From a virus: DNA of 22,442 bases. Shown here in pieces: positions 5,336 to 22,442 of the stretch. The stretch's first letter is position 1; each line of letters starts with the position of its first letter. The notes below the pieces were generated by a model. That model had not been told where the DNA came from and did no database searches. It saw only the letters and a program-made list of their open reading frames with translations. The DNA lies in the IMG/VR virus record IMGVR_UViG_3300022074_000410, positions 1-22,442 of that record, one strand, 5' to 3'. A program made the position numbers and the translations under genes.

Positions 5336-5824
5336 ATGAAGTATATTCGCACACATTTAATCAAACAACTTGTTCAGAGTGAAGGTCTACGCCTAGAGGT
5401 CTATCAGGATACACTTGGCATCGATACAATAGGCGTTGGCAGAAATCTTGAAGACCGTGGTATTACTCAAGAAGAATTAGATACTATGGACATACCGAAC
5501 ATAGAAACAGTGTATGAGTATGGTATTACCGAAGTTGACGCTGCTTTTCTATTAGAGAATGACGTGCAGATAGTCGAGGAAGAACTGTTACGTGCGCACC
5601 CTTGCGTGGACAGCTTAGACTCTGTACGTCAACTTGTACTTGTGGACATGGCTTTTAATATGGGTGTACCACGGCTATGTAAGTTTAAAAAGATGTGGGC
5701 TGCTATACACGAAGAAGATTTTCGTACTGCAGCAAAAGAAATGCTTGACAGCAGGTGGGCAGTTCAGGTAAAATCACGTAGCCATAAATTAGCACATGCT
5801 ATGCATCATGGAGAATTAAAGTAA
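5336..5824 (+). CDS. endolysin, T4-type lysozyme (GH24)
   Basis: This 162-residue enzyme hydrolyses the beta-1,4 bond between N-acetylmuramic acid and N-acetylglucosamine in peptidoglycan, ending infection. The catalytic triad of T4 lysozyme is present with identical spacing: Glu16 in SEGLRLEVY, Asp25 in QDT and Thr31 in DTIGVGRNL. The C-terminal half has the family pattern SVRQLVLVDMAFNMG and SRWAVQVKSRSHKLA. A longer acidic loop (GITQEELDTMDIPNIETVYE) replaces the short T4 lobe hinge. No signal peptide or SAR helix is visible, so it should stay cytoplasmic until the upstream holins open the membrane. The length equals that of the T4 enzyme (164). Confidence 0.92.
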   Translation: MKYIRTHLIKQLVQSEGLRLEVYQDTLGIDTIGVGRNLEDRGITQEELDTMDIPNIETVYEYGITEVDAAFLLENDVQIVEEELLRAHPCVDSLDSVRQLVLVDMAFNMGVPRLCKFKKMWAAIHEEDFRTAAKEMLDSRWAVQVKSRSHKLAHAMHHGELK

Positions 5825-6186
5825 TGGCAAATGAGTTTATTGAAAGAGGTAAGGACGGAGTTCCTAGATTGTACAGGGGAACAAAGGGTGGAAGTAAGCA
5901 GCTTTTAGGACCAGCATCTAAATCTGATATAAAAAGATTGGGTATATCAGGCGATGGGATATTTGGAACAGCGAAAAAGGCCATATCAGGTTTGTTTTCA
6001 GATGACGATGACAAAAAGAAAAAACCTAAAGCTAAATCTATTTCTGAAGGGTTAGGTTCTTTTATGGCAAGTCTTTCACAAAACAAAGGTGGCTATATTA
6101 GTAAGCCACGTACAGGCCACACAGACTATCGTTTTAACAAAGGTGGCATGGTTATGTCATCTACAAATAAAATGAAAAAGAAATAA
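5824..6186 (+). CDS. KGG/TDYR-tailed small protein between lysin and terminase
   Basis: This 120-residue protein has a basic N-terminal half with turn-forming segments (GKDGVPRLYRGTKGGSKQLL), an acidic-basic switch DDDDKKKKPKAK at about 59-70, and a C-terminal 33-residue tail (88-120) with KGG, TDYRFNKGG, SS and a terminal KKK. The tail aligns without gaps to the tail of the 1158-1631 protein at 19 of 33 positions, while the bodies are unrelated. Both junctions are TAATG couplings. Position next to the terminase genes suggests a packaging- or virion-linked role, but none is known. Confidence 0.75.
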   Translation: MANEFIERGKDGVPRLYRGTKGGSKQLLGPASKSDIKRLGISGDGIFGTAKKAISGLFSDDDDKKKKPKAKSISEGLGSFMASLSQNKGGYISKPRTGHTDYRFNKGGMVMSSTNKMKKK

Positions 6187-18129: not shown

Positions 18130-20145
18130 ATGGCAGGTTATACCAGACAGTCTACATATGCTAATGGCGATATTATTCAAGCATCAGACAGTAATGATGA
18201 GTTCAATCAACTTGTCAGCGTCTTTGACATATCTACTGGTCACAAGCATAACGGTACTGTGGGTGAAGGCCCGGTTATCGGTTTAATCGGAGACCCCGGT
18301 GTTGCTACCCCACTTAACAAAGTTGTTGTAGACGATACTAATAACCGTGTTGGTGTGTTTGTAGATGTATCCAGCAGCACAGTAGAACAGGTACGTTTTC
18401 AAGATGGTCTTATTGTTCCTGTTACCACTAATGATGTAGATTTAGGTACAAGTAGCTTACAGTTTAAAGATTTGTACTTAGATGGCACTGCTACCGTTGA
18501 TGGTCTAGCTATGCCTACCACTACTGTTACAGACATTCTTGATGAAGATAATATGTCCTCTAACAGTGCTACTGCTTTAGCTACACAACAGTCTATCAAG
18601 GCATACGTAGATACACAACTAACTGCAGAGGACTTGGATTTTCAAGGTGACTCAGGCGGTGCATTGTCTGTAGACCTTGACAGCCAAACATTCACTATTG
18701 CTGGTGGTACAGGTGTTGACACAAGTGGTTCTGGTCAAACTCTTACTATTGCTATTGACAGCACGGTTACTACTCTTGCAGGTACGCAAACCCTCACAAA
18801 TAAAACACTCACAAGTCCTGTACTAAATACAGGTGTCAGTGGCACGGCTATTCTTGACGAAGACAACATGGCATCTGATAGCAATACTCAGTTGGCAACA
18901 CAGCAGTCAATTAAAGCCTACGTAGACTCTCAAGTTACTGCCCAAGACTTAGATTTTCAGGCTGATTCAGGTGGCGCACTGTCTATTGATTTAGATAGTG
19001 AAACGATGACGTTTACAGGCGGCACAGGCATTGACACTACTGGTTCTAGTAATGATGTGACCTTTGCAATAGATAGCACTGTCACCACTCTTACAGGCTC
19101 ACAAACGCTGACTAACAAAACGCTAACTTCTCCTGTACTAAATACTGCAGTAAGCGGTACTGCTGTGCTGGACGAAGATAATATGTCTTCAGATAGTGAC
19201 ACTCAGTTAGCAACGCAACAGTCTATTAAAGCGTATGTTGATGCGCAGGTTGCTACTGTTCCTACTGGTGATATTACAGCCGTAGTTGCTGGTGACGGTT
19301 TATCAGGTGGTGCAACTTCTGGTTCAGCTACTTTGAATGTAGACGCTACAGTAATTACAGGCCAAACTGCAGAAACGTCTATAGACACAACTAACGATTT
19401 AGTTCTTCTTTATGACAATTCTGCAACAGCACTAAGAAAAGTAGCTGTTACTAATCTTATAGCAGCTAGTGGTGGACTAACCGATGTTGTTGGCGATACC
19501 ACACCACAGCTTGGCGGTGACTTAGACACTAACGGTAATGACATTGTAACAACTTCTAATGCTACCCTAGACCTTGCACCACACGGTACAGGAACAGTTG
19601 TTGTCAGGGGTAATACTAATCCGGGTGCTGTAGTATTTAACTGTGAGTCTAACTCGCACGGTCAAACAGTTATAGCGCAACCTCACTCTGCTTCTGTAAC
19701 CAACACCTTGACATTACCTGCTGGCGGTAATCAGGAGATTGTGGGTACAACAGCAACACAGACGCTTACTAACAAGTCTATTGTAGCTACCCAGCTTACT
19801 GGTACGATTGCAAATGCACGTTTGGATGCTGAGTTACAGGCAATCGCAGGGCTAACTTCTGCAGCAGATAAGGGTATTCAGTTTACTGGTTCTGGTACGG
19901 CTGCGGTGTATGACCTAACAGCGGCAGGTAAAGCACTATTAGATGACGCAGATGCAACAGCGCAGCGCAGTACATTAGGACTAGGCTCTGCCGCAGTATT
20001 AACAGCAGGTACATCTGCTAACAATGCAGTACAGCTAGACGGGTCTGCTAGACTACCAGCAGTAGATGGGTCACAACTAACTAACCTACCATCTTCAGGT
20101 GGTGCTACTGCTGGTTTTGCAGTGGCTATGGCAATTGCGCTTTAG
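18130..20145 (+). CDS. main tail fibre with internal 105-residue repeats
   Basis: This 671-residue protein is probably a trimeric fibre attached to the tail and involved in host recognition. The N-terminal segment (1-60, YTRQSTYANGDIIQASDSN, then GHKHNGTVGEG) is likely the tail-binding end. Residues 136-345 are two tandem 105-residue repeats with a partial third, each with LDEDNM, LATQQSIKAYVD and QTLTNKTLTSPVL. Another QTLTNK lies near residue 545. The C-terminal portion has LGLGSAAVLTAGTSANNAVQ and ends in a hydrophobic GFAVAMAIAL. Threonine, serine and aspartate dominate, cysteine is nearly absent. It follows the nozzle gene after three bases and ends just before promoter P4. Confidence 0.85.
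   Translation: MAGYTRQSTYANGDIIQASDSNDEFNQLVSVFDISTGHKHNGTVGEGPVIGLIGDPGVATPLNKVVVDDTNNRVGVFVDVSSSTVEQVRFQDGLIVPVTTNDVDLGTSSLQFKDLYLDGTATVDGLAMPTTTVTDILDEDNMSSNSATALATQQSIKAYVDTQLTAEDLDFQGDSGGALSVDLDSQTFTIAGGTGVDTSGSGQTLTIAIDSTVTTLAGTQTLTNKTLTSPVLNTGVSGTAILDEDNMASDSNTQLATQQSIKAYVDSQVTAQDLDFQADSGGALSIDLDSETMTFTGGTGIDTTGSSNDVTFAIDSTVTTLTGSQTLTNKTLTSPVLNTAVSGTAVLDEDNMSSDSDTQLATQQSIKAYVDAQVATVPTGDITAVVAGDGLSGGATSGSATLNVDATVITGQTAETSIDTTNDLVLLYDNSATALRKVAVTNLIAASGGLTDVVGDTTPQLGGDLDTNGNDIVTTSNATLDLAPHGTGTVVVRGNTNPGAVVFNCESNSHGQTVIAQPHSASVTNTLTLPAGGNQEIVGTTATQTLTNKSIVATQLTGTIANARLDAELQAIAGLTSAADKGIQFTGSGTAAVYDLTAAGKALLDDADATAQRSTLGLGSAAVLTAGTSANNAVQLDGSARLPAVDGSQLTNLPSSGGATAGFAVAMAIAL
18535..19251 (+). 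repeat. tandem 315-bp repeats inside the fibre gene
   Basis: Units begin at 18535, 18850 and 19165, exactly 315 bases (105 codons) apart; the third stops after about 29 codons near 19251. Each starts with an ILDEDNM or VLDEDNM codon block and contains LATQQSIKAYVD. The protein is much better conserved than the DNA, with many silent differences, so the duplications are old or synonymous change has been tolerated. Such arrays change fibre length by recombination. Confidence 0.9.
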
Positions 20146-20148
20146 CAC

Positions 20149-20177
20149 TTGACACACGTATATAAGTATGATATAAT
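20149..20177 (+). promoter_or_regulatory. sigma70-type promoter P4 for the distal fibre unit
   Basis: TTGACA (20149-20154) and TATAAT (20172-20177) are 17 bases apart, filling the gap between the main fibre and the small protein at 20203. The -10 box lies in the 9-base loop of an inverted repeat, TAAGTAT (20163-20169) and ATACTTA (20179-20185). The leader is only about 19 nt, with TTAGGAG in front of the ATG. Confidence 0.85.
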
Positions 20178-20202
20178 TATACTTAATTAATTAGGAGAAA
20201 TC

Positions 20203-20529
20203 ATGGCACAGGATTTTGAAAGAAACATTGCAAGGAATGTTGGTACAGCCGCAGTAACTATGCGTACCGCTAATTCCGATGATGCGCTTATAGGTATCAA
20301 CATTGCTAATGTTACAACTTCCCAAATCAACATGGATGTGTTTATTAACGATGGGTCTAACGACTACTACATTGTTAAGGATGCACCTATACCTGCAGGG
20401 TCAGCTTTGCAGGTGCTTGATGGTGGAGCAAAGGTTGTAATGCAAGCAAGTGACGTACTAAAGGTACAGTCCGACACCGCAAGCAGCGCAGATGTTTGGG
20501 TCTCTGTAGTTGACACCATCAGTTCATAA
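20203..20529 (+). CDS. small beta-rich virion protein (probable)
   Basis: This 108-residue protein, first in the P4 unit, has the strand pattern VTTSQINMDVFINDGSNDYY, IPAGSALQVLDGGAKVVMQ and ASDVLKVQSDTASSADVWVS, close to the 2820-3179 protein and to a pattern I recall among phage structural proteins. It has a strong Shine-Dalgarno (TTAGGAG). Cysteine and membrane segments are absent. It may be a fibre- or nozzle-associated accessory or a chaperone-like cap; the fibre context makes a virion role likely but not proven. Confidence 0.7.
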   Translation: MAQDFERNIARNVGTAAVTMRTANSDDALIGINIANVTTSQINMDVFINDGSNDYYIVKDAPIPAGSALQVLDGGAKVVMQASDVLKVQSDTASSADVWVSVVDTISS

Positions 20530-20539
20530 GGAATAGATA

Positions 20540-20989
20540 ATGCCTTTAATCGGTAATCCTATCACTGCAAGTTTTCAGGCTAGACCTGCTACCGAAGAGT
20601 TTAACGGTAACGGGTCTACAACCACGTTTACTCTGGGTCACACAGTAACACAAGAAGATATTCTAGTGTCTGTAGACGGTGTTATACAGGAAAGTGTTGA
20701 TGCGTTCACTGTGCCAGACGGTACAACACTTACCTTTACTGCAGCACCGTCAAGCGGAACAGGTAATATCTTTGTAATTTATATGGGTGTGTCGGCAGCG
20801 TCTGTAACACCTGCCGCAGAAAACAAGGGTAACTTCAAGGCAAGCGGCATCTTCCGTACCAATGCACAATCCCTTGCATCTAACACAACCATCCTTGCAA
20901 CAGAGAACGCCAATGTTACTGGCCCACTTACTGTGGCCTCTGGTGTTACATTAACCGTTGAAAGCGGTGGGACATTGGTGACGCTATGA
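20540..20989 (+). CDS. short fibre or fibre-associated protein
   Basis: This 149-residue protein has an N-terminal domain with FNGNGSTTTFTLGHTVTQED, ILVSVDGVIQESVDAF and LTFTAAPSSGTGNIFVIYMG, a beta-sandwich pattern common in marine phage fibres. The C-terminal third (FKASGIFRTNAQSLASNTTI, then LTVASGVTLTVESGGTLVTL) resembles a beta-solenoid or fibre-shaft tail. It probably joins or decorates the main fibre. It ends by overlapping the next gene by four bases (ATGA). Confidence 0.75.
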   Translation: MPLIGNPITASFQARPATEEFNGNGSTTTFTLGHTVTQEDILVSVDGVIQESVDAFTVPDGTTLTFTAAPSSGTGNIFVIYMGVSAASVTPAAENKGNFKASGIFRTNAQSLASNTTILATENANVTGPLTVASGVTLTVESGGTLVTL

Positions 20990-21372
20990 GTACATTAAAA
21001 GCAGATACAATTCAGAACACATCTGGCGGTGCGGTCACGCTGACCAAGCAACAGGCAGCAAAGGCGTATATTAACCAAGACGAAGGAACTTCAATACTAA
21101 AAAGTTTTAATGTCGCTTCCCTAGTTGATAATTCTACGGGAGATTATATTGTTAATCTTTCTAATAATATGAGTGACGCAAACTATATTCCTACAAGTGC
21201 TTCAAACCCGCATGATTTTACATCGGGCGGTGTATCTATTTTGCACGGAACACGAAGCGGTTCAGGGCAGGATGTTGATACTGACCATTTTCATCAGAGG
21301 ACCGGAAAAGTTAGTTCCTCTGCTGTTGATAGTACCAGTGTAAGAAGTACAGTACACGGAGACCTAGCATGA
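20986..21372 (+). CDS. fibre-like protein, GDLA family copy 1
   Basis: This 128-residue protein is the first of three tandem paralogues. It starts MSTLKADTIQNTSGG, has the core AKAYINQDEG then SFNVASLVDNSTGDYIVNL, and ends VHGDLA. The region between the core and the end (about residues 65-122, with SNPHDFTSGGVSILHGT and histidine-rich DTDHFHQR) differs from the other two. Conserved ends with a variable distal part suit receptor-binding fibre proteins of marine phages. It overlaps both neighbours by four bases (ATGA). Confidence 0.8.
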   Translation: MSTLKADTIQNTSGGAVTLTKQQAAKAYINQDEGTSILKSFNVASLVDNSTGDYIVNLSNNMSDANYIPTSASNPHDFTSGGVSILHGTRSGSGQDVDTDHFHQRTGKVSSSAVDSTSVRSTVHGDLA

Positions 21373-21794
21373 GTACGGTGATTACAGACAACCTCACTGG
21401 CAAGACTGCTGCTGGCAATGTGACCATTACCTCTGAGGGCGGTGCTGTGACAATGCAACTGCAACAGGGGTTGGCGAAGCACTTTGTAAATTTTGACGCA
21501 TCTTCTGGCACTCCTACTTCACAGGATTCTTTTAATGTTTCTAGCTTAACGGACTCAGCTACAGGTAAATTTGGTATTAACGTAAATAACAATTATTCTA
21601 ATGTTACCTACTCACTAGCTGGTTATGCTTGTGGAATAAACAGTAATAGTTTTTCAGGTTCTGAATCTTTAGGGCTAGGTACAAATCTTGTTATCACAAC
21701 AACTTCTGGAACGTATGAGTTGTTAAGTTATGCCGCTAGTGCTTATCAAGACTCAAAACACTGTGACACACAAGGATTTGGAGACCTCGCATAA
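21369..21794 (+). CDS. fibre-like protein, GDLA family copy 2
   Basis: This 141-residue second paralogue starts MSTVITDNLTGKTAAGNVTI, has the core AKHFVNFDASSG then SFNVSSLTDSATGKFGINV and ends GFGDLA. It has a longer N-terminal linker than copies 1 and 3, and two cysteines (YACGIN and KHCDTQ) in the variable part. The start overlaps the previous stop by four bases and its own stop overlaps the next ATG by one. The lineage is clear, the exact role (main receptor binder, accessory, or shaft piece) is not. Confidence 0.8.
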   Translation: MSTVITDNLTGKTAAGNVTITSEGGAVTMQLQQGLAKHFVNFDASSGTPTSQDSFNVSSLTDSATGKFGINVNNNYSNVTYSLAGYACGINSNSFSGSESLGLGTNLVITTTSGTYELLSYAASAYQDSKHCDTQGFGDLA

Positions 21795-22177
21795 TGGCTG
21801 GCAAGATTGTAGCAGACCAAATAGAACACAGCACCGCAGGGTCGGTTGATACGCAGTACGTTGTGAATGGTAGTGCGAAGGCTTGGGTTAATTTTAACGG
21901 CACAGGTACGATTGCCGCAAGAGACTCGTTTAACCTAAGTAGTTTGGTGGATAACAATACTGGAAGATACGATGTAAACCTGACCAATTCTTTAAACAAC
22001 GATGATTTTTCAAGCATTTCATGCGTTGGCGAAGTAGTATCATCTGCTGGCGACCGTTCAGCAAGTAACAGTCCAGTAGACAGTAACACTGTTTTAGTAG
22101 GAACTACGTCTAGCAACAATGGTGCGTATAATGATAATGATTTTGTTTTAACGACCATTCACGGAGACCTAGCATAA
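21794..22177 (+). CDS. fibre-like protein, GDLA family copy 3
   Basis: This 127-residue third paralogue starts MAGKIVADQIEHSTAGSVDT, has the core AKAWVNFNGTGTIAARDSF, then NLSSLVDNNTGRYDVNL, and ends IHGDLA. Its core is the closest to the AKAWVNFNGTGT sequence I remember as typical of marine phage fibres. The variable part is asparagine- and serine-rich. It is coupled to its neighbours by TAATG junctions. Confidence 0.8.
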   Translation: MAGKIVADQIEHSTAGSVDTQYVVNGSAKAWVNFNGTGTIAARDSFNLSSLVDNNTGRYDVNLTNSLNNDDFSSISCVGEVVSSAGDRSASNSPVDSNTVLVGTTSSNNGAYNDNDFVLTTIHGDLA

Positions 22178-22442
22178 TGCAAACACCTGAATTTCAAGGC
22201 ACACATCTCTGGGATAGACTGTGCTGGGCGAAAGAAAACCTAGAAGGCTATCAGTCAGACTACCGTGTTGTCTACGAAGATAGCATTGATGAGTGCGCTA
22301 AGATACTTGTTCCTGACCCTAACTGGATGGCGGCAGCACTACAAGGTGGTATCCTGCCCCCGGTCTGGGTGTATCACGAACTTGCCAAAGACGAGGCGCA
22401 GGAAGACTTCAAAAAGCATACTCGTGGCTATTTGTTGCATGA
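22177..22442 (+). CDS. conserved phage protein, 3' end outside window
   Basis: The reading frame opens at an ATG overlapping the previous stop (TAATG) and continues for 88 codons to the window edge. The product begins MQTPEFQGTHLWDRL and contains YRVVYEDSIDECAKILVPDP, WMAAALQGGILPPVWVYHEL and HTRGYLLH. It is no longer fibre-like: it is soluble, aromatic and acidic, with no low-complexity. I recall similar proteins after fibre genes in marine phages, but no function. The C-terminus cannot be judged. Confidence 0.75.
   Translation, partial: MQTPEFQGTHLWDRLCWAKENLEGYQSDYRVVYEDSIDECAKILVPDPNWMAAALQGGILPPVWVYHELAKDEAQEDFKKHTRGYLLH

Follow-up and report, generated by a model that had tools for sequence, protein, structure and literature searches.

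A probable three-slot tail-fibre tip module with exchangeable heads and a dual-coding GDLA junction in a marine relative of phage HMO-2011

The window analysed here is a stretch of 22,442 nucleotides from an IMG/VR virus record (IMGVR_UViG_3300022074_000410), and its closest annotated record is Puniceispirillum phage HMO-2011, with 78.5% nucleotide identity over 1 kb. The phage is a marine relative of the SAR116 phage HMO-2011, and the gene module described below is assigned to an HMO-2011-type podovirus, a kind of phage counted among the sea's most abundant viruses (PMC9038755). Close to the end of the window, a fibre-anchor or adaptor gene is followed by three small genes, here called A, B and C, and by a conserved gene that is cut by the window end and has no Pfam match (Table 1). 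The anchor gene overlaps A by 4 bases, A overlaps B by 4 (21369-21372), and B and C each share a single base with the gene that follows (21794 and 22177, respectively). The long fibre-like protein further upstream consists of recurring DEDNM..ATQQSIKAYVD..LTNKTLTSPVLNT units, between which there are DNA-level matches across relatives as well.

Table 1. Features of the tip module and its surroundings, in window coordinates
Feature	Position	Strand	Basis
Long, internally repeated fibre-like protein of 671 aa, preceding the module	18130..20145	+	phrog_892 tail fiber, 2.5e-30
Fibre-anchor/adaptor gene, 149 aa: T7-gp17-N-like domain and conserved C-terminal beta stub	20540..20989	+	phrog_18673 tail fiber, 2e-31
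Gene A, 128 aa: class-A stalk (MSTLKADTIQ..VTLTKQ), swappable head, GDLA	20986..21372	+	phrog_11355, 1.5e-15
Class-A stalk, residues 1-24	20986..21057	+	class-specific N-terminus
Head A, AK core to codon preceding GDLA	21058..21357	+	35.5% aa identical to L084
Junction A/B, constant: GDLA codons read as Shine-Dalgarno GGAGA, with ATGA start/stop overlap	21358..21372	+	L084 comparison, codon counts
Gene B, 141 aa: class-B stalk (..TMQLQQGL), head, GDLA; second slot	21369..21794	+	phrog_11355, 3.2e-13
Class-B stalk, residues 1-35	21369..21473	+	stalk class comparison
Head B	21474..21779	+	29.4% aa identical to L084
Junction B/C, constant: GDLA codons read as Shine-Dalgarno, with TAATG overlap	21780..21794	+	L084 identity back at 21780
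Gene C, 127 aa: class-C stalk (MAGKIVADQIEHSTAGSVDTQYVVNGS), head, GDLA; third slot	21794..22177	+	phrog_11355, 1.9e-17
Class-C stalk, residues 1-27	21794..21874	+	88.9% aa identical to L084
Head C	21875..22162	+	25.7% aa identical to L084; AF2 all-beta
Junction C/next gene, constant: GDLA codons read as Shine-Dalgarno, with TAATG overlap	22163..22177	+	L084 identity back at 22163
Conserved gene downstream, truncated by window end; 157 aa long in HMO-2011 and L084	22177..22442	+	94% nt identical to L084

A preliminary description of this DNA had taken A, B and C for tandem fibre-like paralogues, and this is borne out in every particular: all three reading frames are present, with measured overlaps of 4, 1 and 1 bases, a shared core (AKAYIN in A, AKHFVN in B and AKAWVN in C), a second shared motif (SFNVASLVDNSTG, SFNVSSLTDSATG and SFNLSSLVDNNTG) and an identical C-terminal GDLA. 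The third copy, used as a query, recovered A and B at 7e-12 and 1e-10, a homology far beyond chance. The phrog_11355 (tail fiber) profile covers most of each protein (3e-13 to 2e-17) and matches all 105 of 105 aligned relatives, while a Pfam search of 105 members gave scattered weak matches only, and just five relatives, mostly longer fibres, were found in cellular genomes. The same family includes the HMO-2011 genes phage1322_29, 32, 34, 37 and 40, which form the same array as that of the window; in HMO-2011 these five members are interspersed with a C1q gene, tail-assembly chaperones and further genes of fibre type. The difference from copy to copy in the N-terminal 24-35 residues is position-specific.

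An AF2 model of the gene C product, made from an alignment without HMO-2011 rows, reached a pLDDT of 80.7, with residues 30-124 predicted as all-beta at good confidence and the last strand finishing at the glycine of GDLA. The N-terminal stalk is of low confidence in this monomer model, and any docking of it is therefore a guess. When the predicted head fold was compared with BFVD, there were 60 matches at E <= 0.001, several of them named tail fibres, including that of Syn5. The PDB gave no match to the sequence profile and no significant match to the fold; in a comparison with solved C1q/TNF-like or other lectin-type trimeric knobs, GITRL and the R1 pyocin fibre appeared only at E ~0.7-1.5. 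The head has the same predicted fold as the C-terminal fibre-tip domain of Syn5 and other phage fibres; in longer fibres the domain is the C-terminal tip, ending a few residues from the C-terminus in most of the longer relatives. Because the fold matches are to viral fibres and the domain sits at the tip of longer ones, it is a reasonable inference that the heads bind host surface receptors, and they may bear on host range.

Each head is followed by the 15-base junction GGAGACCTMGCATRA, which occurs three times in the window, exactly at the three gene ends, against 0.07 occurrences expected. Among 368 unique family ends, 344 carry GDLA, and in 334 of these 344 the end overlaps the next ATG. 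The GDLA glycine is encoded by GGA in 195 of 200 cases in the first set, compared with 21% elsewhere within the same genes, a bias of p ~1e-123 that is nominal since the members are related. The leucine codons at the same site vary freely (CTC, CTA, TTA and CTT), and the fixed GGA is therefore not a matter of mere recent descent. The GGAG provided by these codons sits 7 or 10 nt ahead of the next start and is mostly kept in the variant ends GELA, GGLA and GSLA; in GNLA variants (GGAAAY) it is broken, and the next ATG is still overlapped. In L056, the only member in which the following gene lies further off, GDLA is spelled without GGAG (GGT GAT CTG GCT). An intragenic Shine-Dalgarno sequence at overlapping gene pairs often promotes termination-reinitiation, and in E. 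coli its removal lowered this in four of five tested pairs (PMC6728339). No RNA structure beyond that of shuffled sequences was found at the three junctions, and an Rfam search gave no match. Judged from sequence, the GDLA codons serve the gene that overlaps them as its Shine-Dalgarno site.

This bears directly on the earlier proposal that the fixed GDLA marks a trimerisation or chaperone contact, which is not supported, as the codons form a Shine-Dalgarno sequence and distant relatives are without LA and often without D. A fuller version of that proposal, in which GDLA acts at the protein level (as a latch for trimerisation or a contact for a chaperone) and the bias in codons is a secondary effect, draws on the presence of GDLA or a one-residue variant in nearly all members, on a glycine near the end of many distant relatives and at the end of the modelled last strand, and on L056, which retains GDLA although no gene follows closely and its codons give no GGAG. 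We nevertheless regard it as unlikely: the glycine codon is held at GGA while the leucine codons drift, relatives without the junction end in VFGD, VFGG, FYGDQ, YGDQ, IFG, FFGGR or similar, lacking LA and often D, and within the family it is D that is replaced (by E, G, S, V or N) with G, L and A unchanged. The glycine endings of the distant relatives and the modelled position of the residue indicate that the glycine itself is probably structural, and D, L and A look, from these sequence patterns, like part of the junction.

Upstream of A, the anchor gene matches PF03906 at 8.7e-4 (19.4 bits, below the curated cut-off of 25.2). Its AF2 model (pLDDT 74.8) had the N-terminus of T7 gp17 (7ey9/7boz) among its best PDB matches, with a probability of 0.99-1.00, E of 0.02-0.06 and TM of ~0.4. 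The gene product may resemble the anchor domain of the T7-type tail fibre (gp17, PF03906). In T7, anchor and tip belong to one protein, whereas here a separate anchor gene precedes three tip genes. Similar stub genes, recognized by pattern, stand before 60 of 79 A genes, and at most loci the gene preceding A encodes a fibre protein whose C-terminal stub is conserved.

The stalks were classified from 276 family ORFs in IMG/VR relatives retrieved with the third protein, and fall into classes A (..VTLTKQ.AAK), B (..TTxLQQGLAK) and C (..TxYVVNGSAK), plus a related class D. Neighbouring pairs are nearly exclusively A-B, B-C or B-D; counting from the adaptor, the first member of the family belongs to class A, the usual locus reads A-B-C, and some loci carry a second, A-B-D, set. 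The A-B-C order is also near-fixed in an independent set of loci retrieved via the anchor gene and therefore not selected by head. Stalks are 55-83% identical within a class, in contrast to heads, which are 25-29% identical within a class and 26-27% between classes (21% when shuffled), so that membership of a class leaves head identity the same. Copy number, which the preliminary description had suggested comparing in relatives, varies up to seven per locus, with a second triplet downstream. Its picture of a duplicated receptor-binding set holds insofar as these are fibre-type proteins with conserved and swappable parts; they are not loose, interchangeable duplicates, as each copy has its own stalk and the A-B-C order behind the fibre-anchor gene scarcely varies. 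Of its constant attachment ends, only the class-specific N-terminus looks like one.

At some loci, fewer than half, slot B (the second gene after the anchor) is occupied by an unrelated kind of protein, for example an S74 protein, a different type of head, or a lectin-like protein accompanied by a Phage_tail_APC chaperone. Such replacements were seen in L013, L016, L076, L139, L142, L153 and HMO-2011 (genes 38-39 and 30-31), and a C1q-type protein is also among the occupants.

An obligate heterotrimeric knob made of A, B and C, with one stalk per class, would account for the three genes, their fixed order and their translational coupling. The three classes, the near-fixed order and the overlaps of 1 or 4 bases are all in keeping with it, since genes overlapping in this way are over-represented among those for subunits of heteromeric complexes (PMC10666635), and three differently stalked copies are found in phages of Nostoc and Microcystis as well. 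That slot B can hold an unrelated protein type lowers its standing, and the independent swapping of single heads is hard to square with a tightly packed heterotrimer of one fold; we think it rather improbable that the three products form an obligate complex of this kind.

The exchange of heads is seen most directly in L084, which is 97.2% identical to the window over 2.3 kb upstream and 94% identical downstream, with all three heads replaced (36, 29 and 26% amino acid identity for A, B and C). Identity is lost within the stalk of gene A and regained only in the blocks 21354-21415, 21780-21884 and 22163-22442, each of which begins on the GDLA codon GGA (at 21358, 21780 and 22163) or a few bases away from it and extends through the next stalk or gene. 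In other close pairs, downstream identity, where kept, mostly starts at -15 from the end of the stop, which is the GGA codon; in some further close pairs the next stalk is changed as well. Where adaptors are 95-98% identical, 127 of 132 same-slot head comparisons fall below 50% identity, and at adaptor identities of at least 98% the same heads are often kept (e.g., 10 of 15 for A). Heads also change one at a time: L133 and L134 have identical adaptor, A and B with a different C, L124 and L119 share A and differ in B, and L117 and L126 have the same B stalk under different B heads. Conversely, near-identical heads sit on different stalks: this is so in 13 of 33 similar-head pairs, and 33 of 55 multi-member head clusters include more than one stalk class. 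Of eight pairs in which one head sits on two different stalks, six share a block that begins 0-3 nt from AK and ends no more than 3 nt from the stop. The exchange is not wholly free of slot, as the nearest relatives of a head belong to the same class in 50% of cases versus 33% expected under free exchange. The swappable middle of the preliminary description, with recombination breakpoints at the core and at GDLA, is supported by heads replaced between phages with 97-100% identical neighbouring DNA and by boundaries that coincide with the AK core on one side and with the codons for GDLA on the other; across strains the middles are clearly less conserved than the ends, and do not show the equal conservation that had been named beforehand as counting against it. 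As a reading of sequence comparisons, head swapping is well supported.

These contigs are mostly metagenomic, and L084 is a single contig; conserved junctions could promote chimeric assembly, and single joins could therefore be assembly errors. If all swaps were chimeras joined at conserved junctions, it would fit that the evidence comes mostly from IMG/VR contigs, many ending inside the array, and that identical blocks of 15-105 nt would be of the kind that misleads assemblers. Against this, gene 37 of the isolate HMO-2011 has a class-C stalk, yet its head shares 91% identity with a class-A protein of L042, which argues against a pure assembly artefact, and the heads are diverse over ~160 loci from many samples with the A-B-C order respected, an order that random chimeras would scramble. 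Assembly is accordingly a very unlikely source of the pattern. That the head diversity stems from a diversity-generating retroelement, for which receptor-binding proteins are common targets (see also PMC10743442), or from ordinary point divergence hardly deserves consideration. Whole heads of 26-36% amino acid identity, with indels, stand beside near-identical DNA, in place of adenine-specific substitutions in a gene that is otherwise identical, and one head can be met again on other stalks. The window's ORF list showed no reverse transcriptase-like ORF, and 20000-22442 holds no repeat fitting such a target. The same interval held no fitting repeats for inverted-repeat switching.

Taken as a whole, the locus is probably a three-slot tail-fibre tip module with position-set stalks, exchangeable heads and a dual-coding GDLA junction. 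The anchor gene and the small genes A, B and C would make up this module, each of the three encoding a slot-specific stalk of 24-35 residues and a predicted beta-sandwich head of ~100 residues at the tip. The stalk would set the position, as its class-specific sequence and the near-fixed order suggest, presumably by docking, and the head, as the comparisons show, is exchanged by recombination between the AK core upstream and the 15-base junction downstream. Since that junction encodes GDLA, the stop, and both the start codon and the Shine-Dalgarno of the next gene, any head flanked by AK and GDLA should fit while leaving the frame and the stalk intact and the next gene normally translated. GDLA would be kept mainly as this dual-coding junction, added onto an older structural glycine where the last beta strand ends, and with each of the three slots exchanged independently, receptor specificity could become combinatorial. 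A bolder proposal, that the locus is a combinatorial receptor-recognition device whose three dedicated slots each draw, independently of the others, on one large pool of heads, is tentative, and we hold it to be possible rather than probable; here the coincidence of C-terminal peptide, Shine-Dalgarno and exchange boundary would make the heads plug-compatible in both frame and expression level, and the three products might assemble in a set order into a hetero-complex carried by a split fibre of T7-like type.

The module would belong to the modular phage receptor-binding proteins. Branched systems such as the LtfA/LtfB fibres of the T5-like phage DT57C (PMC4728585) likewise have several receptor-binding proteins with N-terminal attachment parts and recombining receptor parts, although those are long, separately built fibres, in contrast to the three small single-domain tips seen here, with their class-specific, putatively attaching stalks and their translational coupling. 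Tail-fibre domain mosaicism (PMC10684548) and the metaviromic islands of marine phages (PMC3909814) have in common with it a conserved N-terminus, a C-terminal receptor part that can be replaced, and variation among marine phage populations; what differs in the window is that the exchange boundaries are precise and repeated three times, with a dual-coding translation signal as the downstream boundary. For phrog_11355 there is only a name, with no mention of slots, of head exchange or of the GDLA/Shine-Dalgarno junction, and no account of the three-slot order or the dual-coding junction was found in the literature searched, which included few subscription journals. If true, a split fibre with three position-coded, independently exchanged tips would explain fast combinatorial change, and the identity of translation signal, C-terminal sequence and exchange boundary would give a testable rule for viable swaps. 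It also carries a caution, namely that conserved C-terminal motifs in overlapping phage genes need not be protein contacts.

Some further observations were made along the way. Three tandem family genes with differing stalks lie in L093 and L094, from phages of the freshwater cyanobacteria Nostoc and Microcystis, and the GGAGACCTCGCATGA junction of the Microcystis phage is the same as in the window phage. The GAC codon for the aspartate of GDLA was considered as Shine-Dalgarno evidence and was discounted, being partly explained by a strong avoidance of GATC. This sequence is nearly absent, with 1 occurrence versus 59.8 expected in the window, 0 versus 45.8 in 16 kb of HMO-2011 and 0 versus 33 in L014, a scarcity that suggests pressure from a GATC-targeting restriction system. 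Finally, the window encodes small basic proteins at 1158-1631, 2498-2701 and 5824-6186, two of which have similar ends (..DYR(M/F)NKGG(L/M)..SS..KKK) and one of which is built of MMRGG/KKK repeats.
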